In this document: piece after piece, positions 8,401-28,676 of the stretch
Numbering within the stretch: the first letter of the stretch is position 1
How the letters are laid out: each line of letters starts with the position of its first letter
Source of the DNA: a virus
Direction: 5' to 3' (one strand)
Length of the DNA: 28,857 nucleotides
Virus record (IMG/VR): IMGVR_UViG_3300020470_000152
Coordinates: 1-28,857 of that record
Made by a program: the position numbers and the translations under genes
The notes under the pieces: model-generated
What the model was told of the DNA's origin: nothing
Database searches by the model: none
What the model saw: only the letters and a program-made list of their open reading frames with translations

Positions 8401-8909
8401 AGGCACTAGCTCCTCTAATGGATGAGCGATTTACAAACATGAAACATTTTTGGTATTGCGTAGCGGTGGATCGTGTACGAAAAGCAAACAAGTTTCATGA
8501 GAACATTGAGCTTACAAAGAACGAGAATGATTTTACGGAAGAGGAAAAAATTCAATACTTAGTTGATTTGACTGGCATTTTTCCTATGAACCGCGTTGTC
8601 GATGAGGGCATCATTCGCAAACTAAGTGAAAAGTATGTCCCACCTATTTCTGAATATGATCCAGATTTACAATTGACATGGTTTATTCCACGTGATATAA
8701 TTCCCAAGAAGACAAAGAACGGAAAGACATATTGGATTGTTGAAGTTATTGATTCAACAAGCTCAGTCACAAAAATTAAATGCTGGGGCGTTCGGCCCGA
8801 AAAGGATATGATTCACATTAACCGTCCGTATCTTGCAAAACTTGATTTTGATCCTCAGTGGGGATTTTCAACACGCTCGATTCGACACAACTTTAGGCTA
8901 TTAGGATGA
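5472..8909 (+). CDS. dnaE: DNA polymerase III alpha subunit (DnaE-type replicase)
   Basis: 1145-residue replicative polymerase, close to bacterial DnaE length. An N-terminal PHP domain carries HAHS (residues 15-18), LTDHGNMNG and YGCEAYF. The C-family palm has GPGRGSAAGSLVAYVLG (from about 428), the metal-binding pair in PDIDYD (Asp472, Asp474) and IKFDILGL (third Asp, 637). Fingers motifs include YRPGPL and FNKSHAVSYS, a helix-hairpin-helix has IKGLGEKA, and a C-terminal OB-like region follows. TTG at 5472 is preferred because AGGAG is 6 bases upstream and the PHP starts ten residues in. The GTG at 5427 would need a long overlap and lacks a site. The gene overlaps the ClpP-like gene by 4 bases. 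Confidence 0.96.
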   Translation: MIQPKKSNIDFVGLHAHSVAGSIFDAMGYPQEHMDFAYKNGCNALALTDHGNMNGLAYQVLHAKKMHAAGHDFKPIYGCEAYFIPSIAEWREDYEKVMEDKKKRRAHAKEDQSGATIEDEDASKKAIKSILNRRRHLILLAQNQTGLNNIFKLISESYKAENYYRYPRMDYDLLAKYSEGVIAASACLGGVYAGNYWKNREDGPEAVLDAMRDTTRRMMDIFGDRWYGELQWNNIPEQHELNQYIIKMHEEFGIKLISTADSHYPNPDAWRDRELYKRLGWLGKSKPDYEDTELPAGTDDIGYELYPKNGDQMWESYKKYSAECNVEYDDSLVMNSITETHRIAHERISNFYPDNTVRLPDFVVPANLTATQALTSLSIDGLKSLDLHKNTEYIERLKHELHVIDDRGFSKYFLTMKAISDRASKEMLTGPGRGSAAGSLVAYVLGITQVDPIKYGLLFSRFLRSDATDYPDIDYDVADPMKLKEMLIEEWGEDTVAPISNWNTLQLRSLIKDISKFYGIPFTEVNAVTGRMLHEAKAPAKKKHGIKAGIYNPTFEEVMEFSTTLQAFLRKYPHVKTHVEALYGQVRSCSRHAGGVVVAENLDQYMPLINSGGVRQTPWSEGQNVRHLEPMGFIKFDILGLSTLRMIEGCIEHVLRRHHGVDNPSFEDVRDFYNNNLHPDQIDFNDQQVYENVFHAGKWAGIFQFTEGGAQDFCKLAKPTSLIDISAITSIYRPGPLSADVDKQFVEAKESPQYIRYLSEEVQEITEETYGFLIFQEQIALLAHKLGKDLTLDEGNLLRKLLTKKGTGKGNEAKTKIYEKFMQGCREKGMQKVDSQKLWDTFEYFSGYGFNKSHAVSYSILSFQCAWLMNYYPVEWMAAFLDKEPESRKEKAINIAKKHGFDIETVDINRSGMVWEIGDNDSTLVQPLSSIKGLGEKAIEQVLNHRPFYTIEEFLFHDEMSYSKLNKKCLDVLVRSEALAPLMDERFTNMKHFWYCVAVDRVRKANKFHENIELTKNENDFTEEEKIQYLVDLTGIFPMNRVVDEGIIRKLSEKYVPPISEYDPDLQLTWFIPRDIIPKKTKNGKTYWIVEVIDSTSSVTKIKCWGVRPEKDMIHINRPYLAKLDFDPQWGFSTRSIRHNFRLLG
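8673..8701 (+). promoter_or_regulatory. Perfect-consensus sigma70 promoter inside dnaE
   Basis: TTGACA at 8673-8678 and TATAAT at 8696-8701 with a 17-base spacer, all inside the dnaE reading frame. It would give a transcript beginning near 8708, about 200 bases before the ClpP-like gene. Both hexamers and the spacer are ideal, so it may boost the downstream genes independently of dnaE. Activity is inferred. Confidence 0.55.
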
Positions 8910-9508
8910 AAATTAAATATACAAAAGATCCACTACTTCATAAAATTGAATTACGTCGAACACCTGTTATCATTCGTGTTAATAAGTTTGATGAAAAATC
9001 GGCTCAAGAATTTTCTGAAAAAATGAGTGATGCTCACAACACGGGACAACCGGTCATTCCAATCGTCATTGACTCATATGGCGGCCAAGTATATTCATTG
9101 ATGGCAATGATATCTGAGATTGAACATTCAGAATTACCCATAGCCACAATTGTCGAGGGTAAGGCAATGTCATGTGGTGCTATCTTATTTTCATTTGGTG
9201 CTAAGGGCATGCGATTTATGGATCCCAACGCCACCGTTATGATTCATGATGTATCGTCTATGGATAGAGGAAAGGTTGAGGAAATTAAAGCCAGTGCTGA
9301 AGAAACTGATCGACTTAATAAAATAGTTTACAAGATGATGGCTAGAAATTGTGGTAAGAAAGAAGATTATTTCTTAAATATTGTGCACGAAAAGGGTCAT
9401 GCTGATTGGTTTCTTGATGCAGAGGAGTGCATGAAACACAAACTGGCTAATCAATTGCGAGTGCCTAAGTTTACTTTCGATGTTAAAGTTGATTTTAATT
9501 TTGAATAG
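8906..9508 (+). CDS. ClpP-like (S14) serine protease homologue, triad Asp replaced by Asn
   Basis: 200 residues, the length of ClpP. The order is typical: IDSYGGQV (oxyanion/substrate strand, 55-62), the nucleophile loop GKAMSCGAIL with Ser89, MIHD with His114, and the C-terminal segment FLDAEECMKHKLANQL. In ClpP this last segment reads FMSAEEAxxYGLID with the catalytic Asp; here the aligned residue is Asn182. The enzyme may thus be weak, or may use another acid, or may act as a non-catalytic ring subunit. A second ClpP-like gene with an intact triad lies at 13703. The ATG overlaps the dnaE stop (ATGA). Confidence 0.85.
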   Translation: MKIKYTKDPLLHKIELRRTPVIIRVNKFDEKSAQEFSEKMSDAHNTGQPVIPIVIDSYGGQVYSLMAMISEIEHSELPIATIVEGKAMSCGAILFSFGAKGMRFMDPNATVMIHDVSSMDRGKVEEIKASAEETDRLNKIVYKMMARNCGKKEDYFLNIVHEKGHADWFLDAEECMKHKLANQLRVPKFTFDVKVDFNFE

Positions 9509-9553: not shown

Positions 9554-9745
9554 ATGATCTACAAGATTGGAGATTTAGTTAGAGTCGCTTTTGATGAACC
9601 TTTGTCAAAGCATAATATTGGAATCATCATATCAATTAACGAGAATGCTACAATTTATGGTGTTAAGACCGCAAATTATGTACAAAAATTTCACTACTCA
9701 TTTATACAACATGTCAAAGGAGGCATAAATGAACGAACAAAATGA
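9554..9745 (+). CDS. KVGDLV-family small SH3/KOW-like protein
   Basis: 63 residues beginning MIYKIGDLVRVAF. The pattern (K-[VI]-G-D-L-V-R, then a variable loop, then G-I-I-I) matches the paralogous proteins at 25939, 27129 and 27922-28611. They resemble small five-stranded SH3/KOW barrels (inference). An ATG 15 bases earlier is rejected because it overlaps the -10 box of the promoter. From 9554 the mRNA would be nearly leaderless and no Shine-Dalgarno sequence is visible. The gene overlaps the next one by 17 bases. The function is unknown. Confidence 0.62.
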   Translation: MIYKIGDLVRVAFDEPLSKHNIGIIISINENATIYGVKTANYVQKFHYSFIQHVKGGINERTK

Positions 9746-10449: not shown

Positions 10450-10699
10450 AGCCCAGCGCAGAGCCGCAGCAAAAGCAGCGAAGAAGGGTGGAGACAAAGA
10501 ACTTTCCGAGAAAATTTTTTTATTTGACCAGATGCCAGACGAGTGCTCCGCATGCGTAAAGCCATTTGACAAGACAAATAAAGATATGGTAAGATCGTGG
10601 AATGTGGTTGTGAGAGAAGAAGAAAAAATTGTTAGATTATATTGTCCAAATTGTTGGCACAAGGCTAAAACACTTATTGAACAATTGGAGGAAAAATGA
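10442..10699 (+). CDS. Zinc-ribbon protein with basic N-terminus
   Basis: 85 residues from GTG at 10442, set by GGGAG 4 bases upstream and by overlap with the dut stop; longer in-frame starts would run deep into dut. A basic N-terminal helix (NRAQRRAAAKAAKK) is typical of small phage nucleic-acid or assembly proteins. A CSAC knuckle (about 36-39) and a CPNC knuckle (about 70-73) together make a four-Cys zinc ribbon. It ends in a helix LIEQLEEK. The role may be nucleic-acid binding. The gene overlaps the purine enzyme gene by 4 bases. Confidence 0.75.
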   Translation: MNRAQRRAAAKAAKKGGDKELSEKIFLFDQMPDECSACVKPFDKTNKDMVRSWNVVVREEEKIVRLYCPNCWHKAKTLIEQLEEK

Positions 10700-13702: not shown

Positions 13703-14353
13703 ATGCCAAAAAAATTTACTGAAAATGCAGATGAAAAAACAGATGACAATAAAACATTTATACTAGTTGGGTCTGATGAGAAGAGCGACGACGAGTTTCG
13801 AGTTTTTGGTATCGTAGGCGATATAAACGAGGAAAAGTCATCGGAAGCTATTTATTCGCTTATGCACTTTCACCGCACACGCGAAATAGAACAACTATCA
13901 GATCCTGCTGATGTTAATTCAGAGATTATTAAAACTGTTCGACCTATTCAATTTATTCTATCTACCCACGGTGGATCCGCCGAGGAGATGTTTGGTATCT
14001 ACGATGTCATGCGTAATGTAAAAAAAGATTGCGACATTATCACCCGTGGCCTTGGAAAAGTTATGTCTGCCGGTGTTTTGCTGCTCGCAGCCGGAACCAA
14101 GGGTCAAAGGGAGATTGGCCGCAACTGTCGAGTAATGATTCATAGTGCGGTTGGTGGCTACGCTGGCTCTCTACATAATCTTGAAAATGAAATGGAAGAA
14201 GTAAGATATATTCAAGAACAATACATTAAGGCACTTGTAGATGAAACAAACATGACCACCAGACAGTTGAAAAAAATGTTAGAAAAAAAGGTTAACGTTT
14301 ATTTAAGTGCCGAAGAAGCGGTAAAATTGGGCATCGCTGACCTAATTATATAG
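13703..14353 (+). CDS. clpP: ClpP-like (S14) serine protease, intact triad
   Basis: 216 residues. An acidic 30-residue leader rich in Asp/Glu/Lys precedes the fold, which may be a propeptide. The catalytic triad is complete: Ser122 in GKVMSAGVLLLAAG, His147 in VMIHSAVGG, and Asp213 in AEEAVKLGIADLI. STHGGSAEE (87-95) is the oxyanion/substrate strand. Phages use ClpP-fold enzymes as prohead maturation proteases, and the scaffold-like protein at 12359 is nearby, so a head-processing role is plausible. A host-ClpP-like regulatory role is the alternative. It is clearly diverged from the 8906 copy, which lacks the Asp. Confidence 0.92.
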   Translation: MPKKFTENADEKTDDNKTFILVGSDEKSDDEFRVFGIVGDINEEKSSEAIYSLMHFHRTREIEQLSDPADVNSEIIKTVRPIQFILSTHGGSAEEMFGIYDVMRNVKKDCDIITRGLGKVMSAGVLLLAAGTKGQREIGRNCRVMIHSAVGGYAGSLHNLENEMEEVRYIQEQYIKALVDETNMTTRQLKKMLEKKVNVYLSAEEAVKLGIADLII

Positions 14354-16643: not shown

Positions 16644-18221
16644 TTGTCAGATTTAAAAATGCGTTTTGATTCAGAAACTTCTTTGAATCAAAAAATTATT
16701 GACGGCGTTAATGTGCTTGCCGATAACGTCGCTTCTACATTAGGTCCAAAGGGGCGTAATGTAATATTGCAAGAAAAAGGAAAGAGCCCAATCATTACAA
16801 AGGATGGGGTTACCGTGGCTCAGTTTGTTCATTTGGATGATCCATTCATGAACGCTGGTGTACAAATTATTAAACAAGCAGCAACACAAACAAATAATAT
16901 TGCCGGTGATGGTACAACGACCTCGACAGTCTTAGCACGCGCTATATTGACGCAGGCTCAAAAATACCTCACTGCTGGGGCTAGCCCGATTGAACTCAAG
17001 CGAGGGATTGACAAGGCTTCTGAGGCCATTATTGATAATTTGAGAGAACTCGCTACGCCAATTACTAGCGAGGAAGATATCGCCCATGTTGCCACCATCT
17101 CTGCCAATAACGATAAGAGTATTGGCAACTTAATTGCCATGGCAGTTGATCGCGTTGGTAAAGATGGTGCCATCACAATTGAAGAGGCCCGTTCTTCTGA
17201 GACTTCTCTTGACATTACAGAGGGTTTTATTTTTGATTCGGGCTACCGCGCCACCGCTTTCATCACTGATGAAAGACGAGGGTTAATGCGGTACGATGAG
17301 CCGCTTATTATGGTGACCGATCACACAATCTCGACAGTCGAACAAATTCTGCCCATCTTAGAAGTTATCGCAAGAGAGGGAAGACCATTTGTTTTGGTTG
17401 CAGAAGAGATTGAAAACCAAGCGCTTGCAGCCATGATCATGAATGCGATGCGTGGGACACTAAAGGTCGCCGCTATCAAGGCGCCTCGCTACGGTGAAGA
17501 ACGAAGAAGCATTTTGCAGGATTTGGCGATTGCCGTCAACGCTACATTTGTTTCGCGTGAATCTGGTATGAAGGCGCATGAAACTAAGTTGGAGGATCTT
17601 GGGTCTGCTAAGGTTATTGAATGTACAAAGACTTCCACAACCGTTGTGGGTGGAAATGCTAATTACGAATTGGTTGATCAACGCATCGAAACTTTAAAGG
17701 AGCAACTCAAAACAACTGAATCCATACGCGACTGTGAAAAAATTCAAGAAAGAATCACACGTTTAGCTAGCGGAATTGCAGTTATCCGAGTTGGTGCGGC
17801 AACCGAGGTTGAAATGGTAGAGAAAAAGCACAGAATTGAAGATGCCTTAGAAGCTGTTCGATCTGCACAGGTCGAAGGTATTGTGCCGGGTGGTGGCGTG
17901 GCGTTAATTCGTGCCAGTAAAGAATTGACCATTGATGCAGATAACGACGATCAGGCTATGGGTGCGAGCATTGTGCAGCATGCTGTTCGATCTCCACTAA
18001 GACAAATGGCTTTGAACGCTGGCTTGTCGCCTGATCTCATTGAATCGTTAGTCGAGAGTCTAAATGAAAATGAGGGCTATTGTTTTTACAATGGCGAACA
18101 ATGCGATATGATCAAAGCAGGAATTGTTGATCCGGTGAAGGTTACTGGCACAGCGTTGTCAAATGCTGTATCGGTTGCTGGGACTTTAATTACCACCAAT
18201 CACGCCATTATTGGTGTGTGA
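16644..18221 (+). CDS. groL: GroEL-type chaperonin (Cpn60)
   Basis: 525 residues, slightly shorter than bacterial GroEL (about 548). Equatorial ATP-site motifs are all present: LGPKGRNV, KDGVTVA (Asp), GDGTTTSTVLA, and GAATEVEMVEKKHRIEDAL (catalytic Asp equivalent of Asp398). These are followed by VEGIVPGGGVAL. The apical region includes a hydrophobic substrate surface. The Gly-Gly-Met repeat tail of bacterial GroEL is absent; the protein stops at NHAIIGV. The start is TTG, placed by AAGAGGTG upstream. It pairs in function with the GroES at 2074 but is expressed from its own promoter. Confidence 0.96.
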   Translation: MSDLKMRFDSETSLNQKIIDGVNVLADNVASTLGPKGRNVILQEKGKSPIITKDGVTVAQFVHLDDPFMNAGVQIIKQAATQTNNIAGDGTTTSTVLARAILTQAQKYLTAGASPIELKRGIDKASEAIIDNLRELATPITSEEDIAHVATISANNDKSIGNLIAMAVDRVGKDGAITIEEARSSETSLDITEGFIFDSGYRATAFITDERRGLMRYDEPLIMVTDHTISTVEQILPILEVIAREGRPFVLVAEEIENQALAAMIMNAMRGTLKVAAIKAPRYGEERRSILQDLAIAVNATFVSRESGMKAHETKLEDLGSAKVIECTKTSTTVVGGNANYELVDQRIETLKEQLKTTESIRDCEKIQERITRLASGIAVIRVGAATEVEMVEKKHRIEDALEAVRSAQVEGIVPGGGVALIRASKELTIDADNDDQAMGASIVQHAVRSPLRQMALNAGLSPDLIESLVESLNENEGYCFYNGEQCDMIKAGIVDPVKVTGTALSNAVSVAGTLITTNHAIIGV

Positions 18222-24094: not shown

Positions 24095-24122
24095 TCGAAT
24101 TTTTGAAGAAGACGCGCGTCTA
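24095..24122 (+). promoter_or_regulatory. Phage-type promoter motif, copy 1 (TCGAAT-N16-CGTCTA)
   Basis: TCGAAT at 24095-24100 and CGTCTA at 24117-24122, 16 bases apart, with A/T-rich bases upstream. It matches the four other copies except for C in place of T in the -35-like box. It would start transcription near 24130, supporting ATG 24192 as the next gene start. Confidence 0.6.
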
Positions 24123-24191
24123 TTACACGTCTCAAATAAAAATGAGACAAAACCTGAACCAAAAATCATTATTTTGAAAAAGGGCGAAAAA

Positions 24192-24449
24192 ATGGAAACT
24201 AATCTTGAATTGGCCAACACTGAAAAGACGTTAACTCCACTTGAAAGTGCGATTGAACGTGCGCTACTGTTTGGGGAAAACATGTATTTCTCAACCATGG
24301 CCTTTAGCACGTCAGAGTCTCTGACTGATCCCGAAAAGGCTCCACCTAATTTGACACCAGAGGCATATACCGCTTTTTGCGAGTACACCGCCCAGTTATT
24401 TGCAACAGCGGCGGCTGCACGTCAGGAATTAAACGGCATTAGCGCGTAA
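24192..24449 (+). CDS. Small helical protein, unknown
   Basis: 85 residues beginning METNLELANTEKTL. A longer frame from GTG 23991 has CAGGAG 7 bases upstream, so it is a real competitor. I prefer 24192 because a promoter of the repeated class lies between the two starts. The protein is largely alpha-helical with Ala/Glu-rich segments (ALLFGENMYFSTMAF; YTAFCEYTAQLFATAAAAR) and a moderately acidic first half. It overlaps the next gene by one base. No function is assigned. Confidence 0.6.
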   Translation: METNLELANTEKTLTPLESAIERALLFGENMYFSTMAFSTSESLTDPEKAPPNLTPEAYTAFCEYTAQLFATAAAARQELNGISA

Positions 24450-24724
24450 TGGGTATTTTTTGGACTGGCAAAAAAGCTCCTAAGCCAGAAGCTAAAAAAT
24501 GCTTGATGGAGCACATCGCAGATAACTGGACCGGTGGTTTCGCTGCTGCCTTTCATCATGATGATGGTGGCGAACACATTATGGCAGTTTTAGAAGTTAA
24601 CGACCCAGACGAAGCACTAAATGAGGAATTGCGTTCTAAATTTGGCGCTAAGTGGATGGGGTGGCGATTGGTAATATTAAAAGTTCCAATTGGCCACGTT
24701 AAAGTATTTTACAACAAAAAATAA
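24449..24724 (+). CDS. Unknown small protein
   Basis: 91 residues; ATG shares its A with the upstream TAA. A basic start (GKKAPKPEAKK) is followed by a beta-rich core (GGEHIMAVLEVNDPDEALN, KWMGWRLVILKVPIGHVKVFYNKK). The paired strands and Trp content suggest a compact domain. No catalytic or metal motif is seen. It is tightly linked to its neighbours in one transcript from the 24095 promoter. Confidence 0.68.
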   Translation: MGIFWTGKKAPKPEAKKCLMEHIADNWTGGFAAAFHHDDGGEHIMAVLEVNDPDEALNEELRSKFGAKWMGWRLVILKVPIGHVKVFYNKK

Positions 24725-24734
24725 AGGGAATAAA

Positions 24735-24959
24735 ATGTATAATTACATGGCGATTGTCGCCAGTTTGTTTTGTATTGGTGCGGTCGATATGATTGATAAT
24801 GGGGTGGCACATGTCATCTTTACAACCGATGGGCCTGAGAGTTATGAGGCCGATATCCCAATTGAATTATTTCCATGCGAAATTTCAGAGGGTGATTTGT
24901 TCTATGCTCAAGTTATAAACGGTGTTACTGAGATAAGGTGTGGACAGCCTGATTTATAA
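24735..24959 (+). CDS. DUF3006-like small protein
   Basis: 74 residues; ATG 24735 with AAAGGGAA 5-12 bases upstream. A longer frame from an upstream in-frame ATG lacks such a site. After a hydrophobic start (YMAIVASLFCIGAV) it reads DMIDNGVAHVIFTTDG, an acidic loop, IPIELFPCEISEGDLFYAQV, and TEIRCG. The D...G.A.V.....L.P....EGD pattern is similar to small DUF3006-type beta domains (pattern only). The second promoter of the repeated class begins just after its stop. Confidence 0.62.
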   Translation: MYNYMAIVASLFCIGAVDMIDNGVAHVIFTTDGPESYEADIPIELFPCEISEGDLFYAQVINGVTEIRCGQPDL

Positions 24960-24972
24960 TTTGAAAAAAATA

Positions 24973-25000
24973 TTGAATATTTTTGAATGCGACTCGTCTA
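24973..25000 (+). promoter_or_regulatory. Phage-type promoter motif, copy 2 (TTGAAT-N16-CGTCTA)
   Basis: TTGAAT at 24973-24978, 16 bases, CGTCTA at 24995-25000, in a 69-base gap. A second TTGAAT at 24983 is only 6 bases from CGTCTA and does not fit the shared spacing. It leads to the gene at 25029. Confidence 0.75.
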
Positions 25001-25028
25001 TGCACTGACAAGTAAAAAGGAGAAACTT

Positions 25029-25163
25029 GTGAATACTCTTATCAAGTACGCATTTTTAGCGTTTGGTGTTTATTTTGTTATTTCTTTTCTTGCCGACAAT
25101 CCGCATGCTTTTCGTGATTTGAAAAGCTGGATTGATGGCGTAATTGCGGGATTGATATCGTGA
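25029..25163 (+). CDS. Small membrane protein
   Basis: 44 residues from GTG 25029, with AAAAGGAG about 6 bases upstream. One membrane segment (about 6-22, KYAFLAFGVYFVISFLA) is followed by a soluble tail with a second, short hydrophobic end (VIAGLIS). It is the first gene after promoter copy 2 and overlaps the next gene by 4 bases. Confidence 0.62.
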   Translation: MNTLIKYAFLAFGVYFVISFLADNPHAFRDLKSWIDGVIAGLIS

Positions 25164-25375
25164 GTGAAGACCCGCTGATTGTGGTTATCGAGCGTTCGCC
25201 GGATGAAACAATATTTGTGCAAGTGTTCGATGATTTTTTATTAAACTGCATTGATGAAAATGGTAACGATGTTGAACTAACTAAAGAAGAAAGAAAGTAT
25301 ATTTTTATAAAATACAAAAATGGCGAGTGTGATGCTCGCTACTCTTGGGGGACTCATGAAAGTAACGCTAAATGA
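25160..25375 (+). CDS. Small acidic protein, unknown
   Basis: 71 residues from GTG 25160, overlapping the upstream stop (GTGA). Strands alternate with acidic turns (LIVVIERSPDETIFVQVFDDFLLNCIDENGNDVEL) and it ends with a more basic stretch. There is no cysteine cluster or membrane span. The C-terminal codons overlap the HNH gene by 20 bases. Function unknown. Confidence 0.58.
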   Translation: MSEDPLIVVIERSPDETIFVQVFDDFLLNCIDENGNDVELTKEERKYIFIKYKNGECDARYSWGTHESNAK

Positions 25376-25946
25376 ACATATTGAAATGGTTGACCAGAAT
25401 TCACAGGCGACCGCAAAAGAGATTGAAAGCCTGTGTGAGCGCATGCGTGGCAGATTTAGGGTGTGCGGCTTTGACAACGTATGGCAGAACTATAAGGCGC
25501 GTGGAAAACACAACGAGACAAAGCGAAAGCAGAGCAGGGCACTTGTTAGGCAATACGTTGATATGATTCTTGAAACTCAGGACTATCGCTGCACCCACTG
25601 GCTGCATGTTGAGGATGATGAGCTAAACGGAGTTTGGAACCGTCCAGGCGGCAACTATTGTAACTGGAAGATTACAAATATTATTTATGAAATTGACCAT
25701 GTTCATCCGACAAATGCAGGTGGTAAGGACTGTCTGACCAATTATCAATTTCTATCATCTAACGCGAATCAATTTGTAAAGTGTTCGCTGACCTACGATG
25801 ATTTGCTGAAGAGGGTTGATTTGTCTGACCGGCTCAAAGAAAGAATTTTGCACGTGCTCGACCAAAGACAAAAACTTTTTGCATCTAAGAGGTGGCAGAT
25901 TTTTATGGATACGCTCAATAAATACGAGGGAACATTTAATGATTAA
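25356..25946 (+). CDS. HNH endonuclease-like protein
   Basis: 196 residues; ATG 25356 has GGGGGA 4 bases upstream. The HNH core is at residues 112-138: EIDHVHP (Asp114-His115), then AGGKDCLTN with Asn129, then SSNANQF with Asn138. This follows the H-N-N layout of the HNH superfamily, which usually binds one metal and nicks DNA. No full CxxC pair is seen around it. The N-terminal third is helical and Lys/Arg-rich (KHNETKRKQSRALVRQY), fitting DNA contact. It could be a free-standing homing-type or host-DNA-degrading nuclease. Confidence 0.82.
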   Translation: MKVTLNEHIEMVDQNSQATAKEIESLCERMRGRFRVCGFDNVWQNYKARGKHNETKRKQSRALVRQYVDMILETQDYRCTHWLHVEDDELNGVWNRPGGNYCNWKITNIIYEIDHVHPTNAGGKDCLTNYQFLSSNANQFVKCSLTYDDLLKRVDLSDRLKERILHVLDQRQKLFASKRWQIFMDTLNKYEGTFND

Positions 25947-26136
25947 AGTTGGTGATTTAGTGAGACTTAACCCGGAACACCACGGGGGCATGGATAATTT
26001 GGTGTTTGTTATCGAGGTCCGTGACAATACGTTGCCACATGAATTGATTGTGCGTATGCAGGGCTATAATGGAGAAATTAGTGTTTATGAAGACGAAGTG
26101 GAGGTTATAAGTGAAGTATTACATAAGCAAGGTTGA
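25939..26136 (+). CDS. KVGDLV-family small SH3/KOW-like protein
   Basis: 65 residues beginning MIKVGDLVRLNPE and ending VEVISEVLHKQG. It shares the K-V-G-D-L-V-R opening and the V-E-V-I-S tail with the array at 27922-28611. The GGAGG encoding the tail is the ribosome site of the next gene (GTG 26111), which starts 26 bases before this gene stops. Its own start overlaps the HNH stop. Function unknown. Confidence 0.75.
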   Translation: MIKVGDLVRLNPEHHGGMDNLVFVIEVRDNTLPHELIVRMQGYNGEISVYEDEVEVISEVLHKQG

Positions 26137-26380
26137 TGTGAGGTATGGTGACCCTGACGCTGGGGAGCCTCGATTTGTTGCGAAAGAGAGGGTACTAACA
26201 AAGCCCAGCAACTACAAGACTGCGAAATATGCTGCTCAAAGGTACGAGAGCATGGGTATTGAAAATGTTTTTGTGAATGAACACAAGGCATCAAAATATA
26301 ATAAGCTGATGAAGGCTCAAAGAAAGAAGGCGAAACCCGTGACACTACAGGACATAGCGGAGGCGATGAATGATTCTTGA
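26111..26380 (+). CDS. Basic helical protein, unknown
   Basis: 89 residues from GTG with GGAGG 6 bases upstream, in the overlap with the KVGDLV gene. Its product begins MKYYISKVDVRYGDPDAGEP. The remainder is Lys/Arg/Ala-rich helix (TAKYAAQRYESMG; YNKLMKAQRKKAKPV) and ends ALQDIAEAMNDS-like. The nucleotide junction matches the KVGDLV array though the protein itself is unrelated, so this junction is a reused cassette boundary. Function unknown. Confidence 0.68.
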   Translation: MKYYISKVDVRYGDPDAGEPRFVAKERVLTKPSNYKTAKYAAQRYESMGIENVFVNEHKASKYNKLMKAQRKKAKPVTLQDIAEAMNDS

Positions 26381-26579
26381 AGAGGGCGATTTGGTCGCGC
26401 TTAAAGAGTTTTATTACCTGTCACCAGAAAAAAGACACAAGTCGTTAGCCATTGTCATTGAAGCTCAGTGGAAACAATGCAGGATTCGCACGATTTACAA
26501 TGGGATGACATGGTGGGTTCAAAACAATGAACTAAAACTTCTTTCTGGTGGTTCAAAGTCGATAAGCAAAAAAGTTTAA
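26370..26579 (+). CDS. Distant KVGDLV-family protein
   Basis: 69 residues starting MILEEGDLVALKEFYY. It keeps the G-D-L-V core but not the first Lys-Val. A variable loop, AIVIEAQWKQCRIRTIYNG, and WWVQNNELKLL follow, matching the barrel pattern of the family. The ATG overlaps the preceding stop and the gene ends just before promoter copy 3. Divergent membership is inferred from the pattern only. Confidence 0.65.
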   Translation: MILEEGDLVALKEFYYLSPEKRHKSLAIVIEAQWKQCRIRTIYNGMTWWVQNNELKLLSGGSKSISKKV

Positions 26580-26585
26580 TTTTTT

Positions 26586-26613
26586 TTGAATAAATCTCAA
26601 GGCTGCACGTCTA
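26586..26613 (+). promoter_or_regulatory. Phage-type promoter motif, copy 3 (TTGAAT-N16-CGTCTA)
   Basis: TTGAAT 26586-26591, 16 bases, CGTCTA 26608-26613, preceded by a T run. It leads to the gene at 26635, whose GGAG lies 10 bases downstream of the -10-like box. Confidence 0.78.
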
Positions 26614-26634
26614 TTGTGCATCGGAGTTAAAAAG

Positions 26635-26931
26635 ATGAAGACTGTAATCGTTTTGGATACTGAAGACACTAAGGGACTCGCGGCAGCAGTTCGCATTGCT
26701 AAACATCTTGAGCGCGAATACCTTAGCGACTTGATGCCAAATCAATACACCACTAAATATAGCAGTCACGATTTATCATTTAGTAGAATTCCGTTTATCA
26801 AAGTGCTGCGTGCTTTTGCAAAACAGATTCGCGACGATGTTGAAAGCGGAGACTTAAAGCTGGAAGACGTTGGTGGGCTTCGATATACAAAACAATTTAC
26901 CGATAGAGTGTGGAAAGATGAAAAATTCTAA
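26635..26931 (+). CDS. Unknown 98-residue protein
   Basis: ATG 26635 has GGAG about 8 bases upstream and lies directly behind promoter copy 3. The protein opens with MKTVIVLDTEDTKGLAAAVR, a strand-helix start that could suggest a small alpha/beta fold, and ends in a helical basic part (AFAKQIRDDVESGD; LRYTKQFTDRVWKDEKF). No catalytic signature is visible. It overlaps the next gene by 14 bases. Confidence 0.68.
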   Translation: MKTVIVLDTEDTKGLAAAVRIAKHLEREYLSDLMPNQYTTKYSSHDLSFSRIPFIKVLRAFAKQIRDDVESGDLKLEDVGGLRYTKQFTDRVWKDEKF

Positions 26932-27052
26932 AAAGAAAGTATCGCAACCCTCTGTGGTACATGTCGCCGCTTTTCTGCGCTCCGGTGCAGGCAAGCACAA
27001 AAGCAAAAAGATTTATAGCCGCAAGGCAAAACATAAAGGAAGGGCACAATGA
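26918..27052 (+). CDS. Short, very basic protein
   Basis: 44 residues, about one third Lys/Arg (KNSKKKVSQPS; KHKSKKIYSRKAKHKGRAQ), beginning inside the preceding gene with GTGGAAAG upstream. High positive charge suggests nucleic-acid or ribosome binding. A hydrophobic patch (VVHVAAFLRSG) sits in the middle. It overlaps the next ATG by 4 bases. Small size leaves some doubt. Confidence 0.55.
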   Translation: MKNSKKKVSQPSVVHVAAFLRSGAGKHKSKKIYSRKAKHKGRAQ

Positions 27053-27129
27053 TTGTTGCAATTGTAATTTATAGTTTGGTTTTCTCATTCGCTTATTCGC
27101 ATGCTCTTGATATGCACTTGGGTAATTAA
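27049..27129 (+). CDS. Very small membrane peptide
   Basis: 26 residues, MIVAIVIYSLVFSFAYSHALD then MHLGN, essentially one hydrophobic helix. GGAAGG lies 5-10 bases upstream. The stop overlaps the ATG of the next gene by one base, a placement typical of coupled genes. It is too short to name. Confidence 0.5.
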   Translation: MIVAIVIYSLVFSFAYSHALDMHLGN

Positions 27130-27335
27130 TGAAAGTTGGTGATTTGGTGCGCGTTGGCCCACCTTTGAGGCTTCAAAACAAAATTGGACTTATCGTCGGT
27201 CGTGATAGCAAATCAGACACGATGCAAATGGGACGCGACGGTGATTTTTTTTATACGATGTATTATAAAGTTGTCATTGATGGTCACGTTTATAGAATTG
27301 AAAAAAGTAATTTGGAGAAAATAAATAATGGATGA
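27129..27335 (+). CDS. KVGDLV-family small SH3/KOW-like protein
   Basis: 68 residues beginning MKVGDLVRVGPPLRLQNKIG and continuing LIVGRDSK...YYKVVIDGHVYRIEKSNLEKI. It has the full family core: K-V-G-D-L-V-R, a variable loop, G-L-I-V, a long loop and a final strand. The usual V-I-S tail is replaced by EKINNG. It is coupled to the preceding peptide by a one-base overlap. Confidence 0.75.
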   Translation: MKVGDLVRVGPPLRLQNKIGLIVGRDSKSDTMQMGRDGDFFYTMYYKVVIDGHVYRIEKSNLEKINNG

Positions 27336-27501
27336 TTACGAGGCAGTTGGAATTGCAGAAGGGTTTGTCGATTGCGATGATGAAGAGAGAATCATCGAGG
27401 CATGGCAGCATCTAATCGACACCGGCTTGGCCTGGACGCTGCAAGGTGCGTTTGGTCGGATGGCGAAATCCCTGATTGATGCTGGTGTTTGCACGCCTTG
27501 A
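27328..27501 (+). CDS. Small acidic protein, unknown
   Basis: 57 residues: MDDYEAVGIAEGFVDCDDEER, then helical IIEAWQHLIDTGLAWTLQG and RMAKSLIDAGVC. It is helical and acidic, with two Cys. GGAG in the preceding gene lies about 9 bases upstream of the ATG. Its stop falls at the start of the 32-base repeated promoter cassette, so the end of this gene borders promoter copy 4. Confidence 0.6.
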   Translation: MDDYEAVGIAEGFVDCDDEERIIEAWQHLIDTGLAWTLQGAFGRMAKSLIDAGVCTP

Positions 27502-27529
27502 AAAATAATTTAATTTTTTTTGAATATTC
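27498..27529 (+). repeat. 32-base promoter cassette, copy A
   Basis: This block and the one at 28601-28632 are 31/32 identical. Both run from the last codons of the upstream gene through an AT-rich stretch (AATAATTTAATTTT) to TTGAATATTC, the -35-like box. The single difference is an A instead of T at 28621. Confidence 0.85.
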
Positions 27530-27547
27530 GCGGAACTCCTGCGTCTA
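27520..27547 (+). promoter_or_regulatory. Phage-type promoter motif, copy 4 (TTGAAT-N16-CGTCTA)
   Basis: TTGAAT 27520-27525, 16 bases, CGTCTA 27542-27547, followed by ACG. It drives the gene at 27575, whose AAAGGAG is 7-13 bases upstream of its ATG. Confidence 0.8.
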
Positions 27548-27574
27548 ACGGGTGTCTAAACAAAGGAGACACAC

Positions 27575-27922
27575 ATGGGTTATCGTTCAGAAGTTGTCCT
27601 CGTCATTGGTAAAGAAGTTATGCCTCAGTTTATGGTCACCATGGCTAAGTCGCCAGAGGCTCGTAAACTTTGCTGGGGCGACCACGACCGCATGATTAAG
27701 GATTATGATGGCGAGGGAAATTTTCTTTTTGCATGGGGTGGCATCAAGTGGTACAACACCTATGAGTGCATTGGTGCCATCGAGGACTTTATGGACTGGT
27801 GCGAGGGCGAGGGCAAGGAAGAGGAATTCCGCTTTATTCGCATAGGCGAAGACGCAGACGATAACATCGAGCGTGGCTGGCTAACCCATGACGTTCACAT
27901 CACACGAGAGGTCAGCTACTAA
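27575..27922 (+). CDS. Unknown 115-residue protein
   Basis: Strong AAAGGAG and promoter copy 4 precede the ATG. The protein opens MGYRSEVVLVIGKEVM; a central WGGIKWYNTYECIGAIEDFMDW and a late FRFIRIGEDADDN read as strands and helices of a compact alpha/beta domain. It is Trp-rich and acidic at the end. I recall similar small proteins in phages but cannot name a function. Its stop overlaps the first gene of the KVGDLV array by one base, making it the head of that operon. Confidence 0.8.
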   Translation: MGYRSEVVLVIGKEVMPQFMVTMAKSPEARKLCWGDHDRMIKDYDGEGNFLFAWGGIKWYNTYECIGAIEDFMDWCEGEGKEEEFRFIRIGEDADDNIERGWLTHDVHITREVSY

Positions 27923-28116
27923 TGAAAGTCGGTGACTTGGTGAAGTTTGAAACTGAATCGTGGGTGATGCGCCGCGACTATGCAAACCCTGGCGTGGTTT
28001 TGGAAGTCAGGATGGCCCGGCACAATAAATCGCGGCGTATGCGGGTGATGTGGTCTGATGGAAGCATCACCTTAGAGCACAGTTGTTATCTGGAGGTTGT
28101 CAGTGAAAGTCGGTGA
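27922..28116 (+). CDS. KVGDLV array, member 1
   Basis: 64 residues from ATG, MKVGDLVKFETESWVM...GVVLEVR...RRMRVMWSDGSITLE, ending LEVVSESR. It is a probable five-stranded SH3/KOW-like barrel (inference). Its GGAGG (28092-28096), which encodes part of the LEV tail, is the ribosome site of member 2. The last 14 bases overlap member 2, in another frame. Confidence 0.82.
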   Translation: MKVGDLVKFETESWVMRRDYANPGVVLEVRMARHNKSRRMRVMWSDGSITLEHSCYLEVVSESR

Positions 28117-28258
28117 TTTGGTACGCTTTCGTGGTCATATTGGCATCATCATTGAGAGCACAGCGTGGGCCACACTCGTTTGCTGGAACAGTGGCGAAGT
28201 CGAGGACGTGGATAATTACGCACATTTGAATTTGGAGGTTATCAGTGCAAGTCGGTGA
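28103..28258 (+). CDS. KVGDLV array, member 2
   Basis: 51 residues from GTG 28103: MKVGDLVRFRGHIGIIIEST, then ATLVCWNSGEVEDVDN, ending LEVISASR. It is the shortest member, with a trimmed loop between strands. GGAGG at 28092-28096 gives 6 bases to the GTG. It overlaps member 1 by 14 bases (28103-28116) and member 3 by 14 bases (28245-28258). Confidence 0.78.
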   Translation: MKVGDLVRFRGHIGIIIESTAWATLVCWNSGEVEDVDNYAHLNLEVISASR

Positions 28259-28436
28259 TTTGGTTAGAGTAACAAGCGTGGACGGTTGGCCCGTGGGCAT
28301 GATTTTGCAGATTCGCGACCACACGTGCGGGTATCGCATCAAACATTATTCGGTGAAACTATTTGATTCACGGTGGCAACCTAAACCACATGATTTTCTA
28401 CAGCATCAAATGGAGGTAATTAGTGAAAGTCGGTGA
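28245..28436 (+). CDS. KVGDLV array, member 3
   Basis: 63 residues from GTG 28245: MQVGDLVRVTSVDGWPVG, then MILQIRDHTCGYRIKHYSVKLFDS, ending MEVISESR. GGAGG at 28234-28238 gives 6 bases spacing. The family core is intact with Gln in place of the second-residue Lys. The overlap with member 4 is 14 bases (28423-28436). Confidence 0.82.
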   Translation: MQVGDLVRVTSVDGWPVGMILQIRDHTCGYRIKHYSVKLFDSRWQPKPHDFLQHQMEVISESR

Positions 28437-28611
28437 CCTCGTTTATGCAAAGCAGGATTTGAGAAACGGTTTTCAATGCATCGGACTTATTCTGGAGCGT
28501 AGGGGTGCCACCCATGAACGCTTGGCAGAGTACAAAATTTTATGGAACTCTGAGAGCAACCCTATCGGCTGGTGGAGGATTAGCCAGCTACAACCTGCCA
28601 TTGAAAAATAA
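28423..28611 (+). CDS. KVGDLV array, member 4 (last)
   Basis: 62 residues from GTG 28423: MKVGDLVYAKQDLRNGFQCIG, LILERRG, then AEYKILWNSES, ending LQPAIEK. The tail lacks the E-V-I-S motif, as expected if that motif exists only to carry the ribosome site of a following array gene. GGAGG at 28412-28416 gives 6 bases spacing. The stop lies within the repeated promoter cassette. Confidence 0.82.
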   Translation: MKVGDLVYAKQDLRNGFQCIGLILERRGATHERLAEYKILWNSESNPIGWWRISQLQPAIEK

Positions 28612-28632
28612 TTTAATTTTATTTGAATATTC
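28601..28632 (+). repeat. 32-base promoter cassette, copy B
   Basis: Matches 27498-27529 with a single substitution. It starts three codons before the stop of the last array gene and ends just after the -35-like box of promoter copy 5. A recent duplication or strong selection on this stretch would explain it. Confidence 0.85.
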
Positions 28633-28650
28633 TGAATTCTGGCGCGTCTA
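28623..28650 (+). promoter_or_regulatory. Phage-type promoter motif, copy 5 (TTGAAT-N16-CGTCTA)
   Basis: TTGAAT 28623-28628, 16 bases, CGTCTA 28645-28650, followed by ACG as in copy 4. It lies in the 65-base gap ahead of the gene at 28677. Confidence 0.8.
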
Positions 28651-28676
28651 ACGAACATACACAAAGGGGTGGTAAA

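Follow-up and report, generated by a model that had tools for sequence, protein, structure and literature searches.

How does a virus come to carry a run of small related genes in which each gene begins inside the end of the one before it, and what does the shared overlap do? This question is raised by the window, a whole IMG/VR virus record (IMGVR_UViG_3300020470_000152) of 28,857 bases, which encodes a DnaE-type DNA polymerase, a ribonucleotide reductase, GroEL (16644-18221), and two ClpP-like proteases (8906-9508 and 13703-14353, assigned to head-maturation-protease PHROGs). Four paralogous genes on the forward strand form the array. Unit A (27922-28116) starts with ATG and encodes 64 amino acids with the tail LEVVSESR. 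The other units start with GTG: unit B (28103-28258, 51 amino acids, tail LEVISASR), unit C (28245-28436, 63 amino acids, tail MEVISESR), and unit D (28423-28611, 62 amino acids), the last member, which ends in QPAIEK. We propose that the overlap is both a translation signal and a 32-bp homology joint, and that the units are, very likely, interchangeable cassettes of a fast-turnover family of small phage proteins, predicted to be SH3-like barrels. At the sequence level, the comparisons below show the geometry of the overlap, the tracking of the tail with the next gene, the gain, loss, and reordering of whole units, exchange within the joint, and purifying selection on the unit bodies.

A sequence-only reading of this DNA had claimed that the units overlap by exactly 14 bases at all three junctions, and the ORF coordinates confirm this base for base, with GTGAAAGTCGGTGA at 28103-28116, GTGCAAGTCGGTGA at 28245-28258, and GTGAAAGTCGGTGA again at 28423-28436. 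It had also placed a GGAGG 6 bases before each GTG, doubling as Glu-Val codons of the upstream gene, and this is what we find at all three junctions (28092-28096, 28234-28238, and 28412-28416), where the upstream frame reads (Leu/Met)-Glu-Val. Each of these SD sequences lies in a conserved 32-nt block on the forward strand, at 28091-28122 for A/B (GTG at 28103, TGA at 28114-28116), 28233-28264 for B/C (GTG at 28245, TGA at 28256-28258), and 28411-28442 for C/D (GTG at 28423, TGA at 28434-28436). The overlap is 14 nt long because the upstream frame reads its TGA from the Gly-Asp codons, GGT-GAY, of the next start. The upstream proteins end in VVSESR, VISASR, and VISESR. Thus, the S-E-S-R tail that had been described for every junction holds at A/B and C/D, but the middle tail departs from it, since the S-A-S-R of unit B matches the CAA codon in the start of unit C. 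Unit D was correctly seen to lack the tail. The sequence AGTGAAAGTCGGTGA, allowing up to 2 mismatches, matches the 28.9-kb record five times, in each case at a family start, and the reversed control never matches it, so the junction sequence is not a product of chance.

Four KVGDLV proteins had been described as a tandem array. They stand as an array, but the family is not confined to them, as dispersed members are found on the same strand at 25939-26136 (C-terminus EVISEVLHKQG), 26370-26579 (MILEEGDLV...), and 27129-27335 (MKVGDLVRV..., without the array tail and overlapping an unrelated gene by 8 nt). These three are more diverged than the array units, and still more distant members lie at 9554 and 18870. 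The member at 25939-26136 ends as it does because the GTG of an unrelated gene, at 26111, sits inside its tail; this GTG also has a GGAGG at 6-nt spacing, as in the array. An AT-rich repeat with a promoter-like TTGAAT-N18-TCTAAC lies 5′ of the gene that precedes the array (27498-27566, forward strand), and a second copy directly follows the array (28601-28652, forward strand). The promoter-like motif TTGAAT-N18-TCTAWY occurs within this repeat at 26586, 27520, and 28623, flanking the array blocks, and in the related locus L141 it is also found between array blocks, at 2473, 3407, 4527, and 8109.

The window members are so strongly divergent that their family alignment is unsuited to scanning a sequence collection. 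The junction pattern GGAGGTNNTNAGTGAAAGTNGGTGA, with 21 fixed bases, matched more than 119 stretches of viral contigs. The 188 viral loci collected (1.56 Mb) contain about 1,440 distinct KVGD-type members. The 20 whole records, of 22-293 kb, contain 7-31 KVGD-type starts each, nearly all on one strand, with at most one for the reversed control. On the bacterial and archaeal side, a search of about 85,000 species genomes gave the junction pattern in only four MAG contigs, assigned to bacteria or an archaeon, and these are probably binned viral DNA. A tblastn search of cultured phages (INPHARED) with three units gave no match. The 19-nt DNA matches in Salmonella Kuttervirus, antisense to annotated genes in both records inspected, were judged to be due to chance. 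A literature search found neither the string KVGDLV nor an account of such overlap-joined arrays. With up to about 30 members in a record, the arrays point to a protein family that is under strong selection and still unnamed.

How constant is the junction across this family? In 870 members, a paralogue starts no more than 60 nt from the stop; 686 of these overlap by exactly 14 nt and 92 by exactly 4 nt, and 744 of the overlaps are in one relative frame (2 mod 3). As a control for seed bias, junctions matching the search pattern were excluded and a separate count was made on the junction-blind loci (L125-L188), which gave 192 junctions at 14 nt and 26 at 4 nt. Free variation in junction length, which the sequence-only reading had said would count against it, is therefore not seen. 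The Gly codon is GGT in all 735 overlapped starts, compared with 140 of 211 starts not so overlapped, and the Val codon is GTC in 598 of the 735, compared with 21% of Val codons in the bodies. DNA conservation across junctions is limited to positions -12 to +19 around the start, and the joint has a consensus of about 32 bp, TGGAGGTNATCA[G/A]TGAAAGTCGGTGATYTRGT. In one unit on the reverse strand of locus L118 (2106-2321), the junction stop has been lost, which adds 16 residues reading into the next unit and gives a 62-nt overlap.

What does the conserved tail reflect? It had been claimed that the tail is dictated by the start of the next gene, and its distribution supports this. The tail residue is S when the next start is GTG (n = 416) and N when it is ATG (n = 221). 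Furthermore, the ESR-type tail ends unrelated genes that precede a family member, and before a GIY-YIG gene it becomes SENK or SESN, an out-of-frame reading of the 5′ codons of that gene. Since the tail changes with the next start, whatever gene carries it, we assign its last four codons to the gene that follows. In the junction-blind loci, the tail is present in 149 of 192 junction members, in 3 of 112 members that no paralogue follows, and in none of the 26 members of the 4-nt class, so that a tail with no paralogue behind it is rare. Most tailed members without a strict downstream match precede a variant start (KVGS, KVGN, or KVGE), and only about ten have no recognisable start downstream. 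The Leu-Glu-Val before these four codons, with its Glu codon GAG in 428 of 441 junction members compared with 45% of body Glu codons, is present in about a third of terminal members. It is under a mixed constraint, as the last β strand of the predicted barrel and as the SD, and only the 3′-most four codons are thus purely imposed by the next gene. A frayed tail is found in 15% of members that end without a 14-nt junction, against a background of 0.4%, as if these members had formerly been internal in an array. A conserved C-terminal motif such as SESR can be unrelated to the protein that carries it.

The unit bodies have a dN/dS of 0.15 (272 pairs), showing purifying selection, and thus the unit proteins are used. 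The predicted structure of unit B (pLDDT 94.5) is an SH3-like barrel of five strands with one short helical turn, the fold of the SH3-like small barrels. The model resembles the Tudor domain of UvrD/PcrA, the KOW domain of Spt5/NusG, CarD, and the MscS β domain, with Z of about 5.7-6.5 over 46-49 residues. This fold is common and the match unspecific, so it tells little about function. The likeness to these barrels is one of fold, without a sequence match at curated cut-offs: the window units have no Pfam match at that level and only weak, unnamed matches in PHROGs, and a PDB profile search gave a weak match to Spt5 KOW (E 0.08).

Genes from outside the family also ride in the arrays. GIY-YIG nuclease genes that end in the array tail lie in or at the edge of arrays in L040 (4593-4853; Pfam PF01541, E 1.5e-16), L038, L180, L181, and L088, and in L040, L180, and L038 their start is inside the tail of the preceding unit. 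A second guest gene (VKVEDWECNPRKK..., 94 amino acids, no Pfam match) is found in the arrays of L026, L052, and L088, with overlaps of 11 nt upstream and 14 nt downstream. In L103 (reverse strand, near 10634), a junction is followed, inside the next short ORF, by what seems to be the beginning of a tRNA-like sequence.

Near-identical phages differ by whole units. Over 16 kb, loci L127 and L128 share 99.4-100% identity, the difference being exactly one unit (176 nt) between two copies of a 20-nt repeat, ATGAAAGTCGGTGATTTGGT. A one-unit indel of 232 nt with 34-nt direct repeats separates L147 and L171, and one of 175 nt with 40-nt direct repeats separates L078 and L083, with flanks about 99% identical in both pairs. 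In L147, the remaining unit starts with ATG in place of GTG, forming a hybrid joint. L055 and L118 have both flanks in common and two units in reversed order. The window itself has a close relative in L141, which is 97.8% identical over 24114-27799, with three dispersed members at 99-100%. The array differs thereafter, reading Y-A-T-D in L141 and A-B-C-D in the window, where Y and T are absent. Unit D of L141 is 94% identical at the nucleotide level. Homologues of unit A lie at other array positions in L141 (86%) and L125 (76%), and the L125 homologue of unit C (90%) has another upstream neighbour and A instead of D downstream. The flanking genes of L141 and L125 keep their order while units A and C are reordered. 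The three one-unit differences at junction repeats are changes in array length of the kind that the sequence-only reading had proposed to look for in related phages, and they bear out its description of each unit as a cassette ready to duplicate. However, duplication is no more important here than shuffling within a large pool of units that have diverged.

Is the joint also the site of exchange over the whole collection? For units 80-95% identical in the body at different loci, the next unit is different in 83 pairs and the same in 18. Blocks of DNA similarity stop at the joint for 95% of right ends and 86% of left ends, compared with an expected 21%. Linkage to the left unit is about 0.9 at -18 and has dropped to about 0 at +20, and linkage to the right unit, about 0 at -13, has climbed to about 1 by +24, so that the curves cross within the overlap. 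This crossover is expected from exchange there and not from mere conservation of the joint. Even without recombination, purifying selection on the SD, the start, and two frames would keep much of the joint unchanged, and the two accounts can be told apart only by the linkage gradient, the block ends, and the indels.

In the mechanism that we propose, the joint would have three roles, as the last β strand and tail of the upstream protein, as the SD and start codon for the gene that follows, and as the opening seven codons of that gene's protein. All units share this joint, and in one phase. Recombination of one joint with any other, in a single genome or between co-infecting phages, would therefore delete, add, or swap whole units and always restore the ribosome site, start, stop, and frame. 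The exchange itself is most likely due to general homologous or annealing recombination, or to replication slippage on the direct repeats of 20-40 nt. The chain of units may be translated by coupled re-initiation, with which the SD and a stop just past the start are consistent. The barrels may be early proteins that interact with the host or counter its defences, a role in which a changing repertoire would pay.

Could the overlap serve translation alone? The overlapping stop and start with their embedded SD would then couple an operon of paralogues, with no special role of the joint in exchange, as is suggested by the GGAGG at 6-nt spacing, the GAG preference in Leu-Glu-Val, and the common coupling of overlapping genes. 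However, Val3 mostly has C at its wobble position, which is more than an SD needs, and the spacings that favour coupling are -4, -1, and -8, longer overlaps such as -14 being rare and less efficient (PMC12548453, PMC10666635). This suggests that what maintains the 14-nt form is its use as a shared joint and not an advantage in coupling. Since translation alone also leaves the unit turnover, the joint-bounded similarity, and the linkage gradient unexplained, we consider it improbable. A different use of the overlap would be programmed +1 frameshifting, giving fused multi-barrel proteins. The excess of one frame and the position of the SD upstream of CGG-TGA are what it would predict, but about 14 nt separate the last sense codon from the SD, whose 6-nt distance to GTG or ATG fits initiation. 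In the prfB frameshift site, the SD is only a few nucleotides from the last sense codon. In addition, 92 junctions have a 4-nt overlap instead, and we find frameshifting scarcely credible here.

The arrays might also have arisen by plain local duplication and divergence in place, without exchange between phages. All members are on the same strand, in runs, and paralogous within a genome, but the closest relatives of a unit are often in other phages beside different neighbours, and A and C are reordered while their flanking genes are not; these observations contradict such an origin, which we regard as extremely unlikely. It is very unlikely that assemblers fused strains at the shared joints. 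All of the data are assembled metagenomic contigs, in which direct repeats of 20-40 nt, sized to confuse short k-mers, could in principle be misassembled. Nevertheless, the units are in frame and under purifying selection, the identity between homologous units is continuous from 40 to 98% rather than strain-level, and the linkage gradient requires a real history. We give somewhat more weight, while still doubting it, to a dedicated cassette-shuffling system, with its recombination site fused into the joint of overlap and ribosome site. A specific enzyme could then drive exchange, and a UvsX-type phage recombinase or the cassette-riding GIY-YIG nucleases could be the driver. RecA/UvsX-like proteins are encoded in 15 of the 24 array records searched and in none of the short ones, including the window. 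RecT (0 of 24) and GIY-YIG (only 6 of 24) were rejected as a universal recombinase and a universal driver, respectively. Such a system, if real, would equip each phage population with a combinatorial set of small SH3-like effectors.

We thus favour general recombination at a joint that is also a translation signal. Accessory regions of uncultured phages could in this way turn over rapidly without gene breakage, each exchange being in frame and with its own ribosome site because the homology used for exchange is the sequence used for translation. The near-identical phages with differing arrays make the rate and mechanism of this turnover directly measurable.

What known systems does this resemble? 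The nearest ideas are the PeSL linkers of T4-like phages and the lpl clusters of Staphylococcus aureus. PeSL is said to consist of an intergenic early promoter and a stem-loop terminator, a short conserved gene-boundary sequence by which genes are reportedly shuffled between related phages. The phage arrays likewise have a short conserved border sequence that bounds the exchange of units between related phages. However, their joints are wholly coding, lying inside two overlapping frames and carrying a ribosome site, the promoter-like repeat is found only around whole blocks, and nearly all units are paralogues of one family. To our knowledge, neither PeSL nor lpl embeds its homology in a coding overlap that doubles as a ribosome site. 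PeSL elements are described as mobile regulatory cassettes (Arbiol 2010 and Comeau 2014, as cited in PMC4503421). In the account of the tandem lpl/set paralogues of S. aureus nuSa-alpha given in PMC4470592 (Tsuru & Kobayashi 2008), a conserved stretch flanked by variable regions, described as intragenic, is held responsible for shuffling, duplication, and diversification. The phage arrays, too, consist of paralogues in tandem on one strand that share a conserved stretch, and close relatives differ in how many there are and in what order, but their conserved sequence is a gene-gene joint with a 14-nt coding overlap, where the similarity blocks end, and not a recombining stretch in mid-gene. Integron arrays are likewise built from exchangeable units of one gene each that share a joint. 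Integrons, however, rely on an integrase and on attC sites that lie outside the coding frame, and their genes do not overlap, whereas the phage joint lies in a coding overlap. Finally, as in translationally coupled pairs with spacings of -4, -1, or -8 (PMC6728339, PMC10666635, PMC12548453), stop and start overlap and the SD is in the upstream gene, but in the phage arrays, the overlap is 14 nt, a rare spacing that is tied to the exchange of units.
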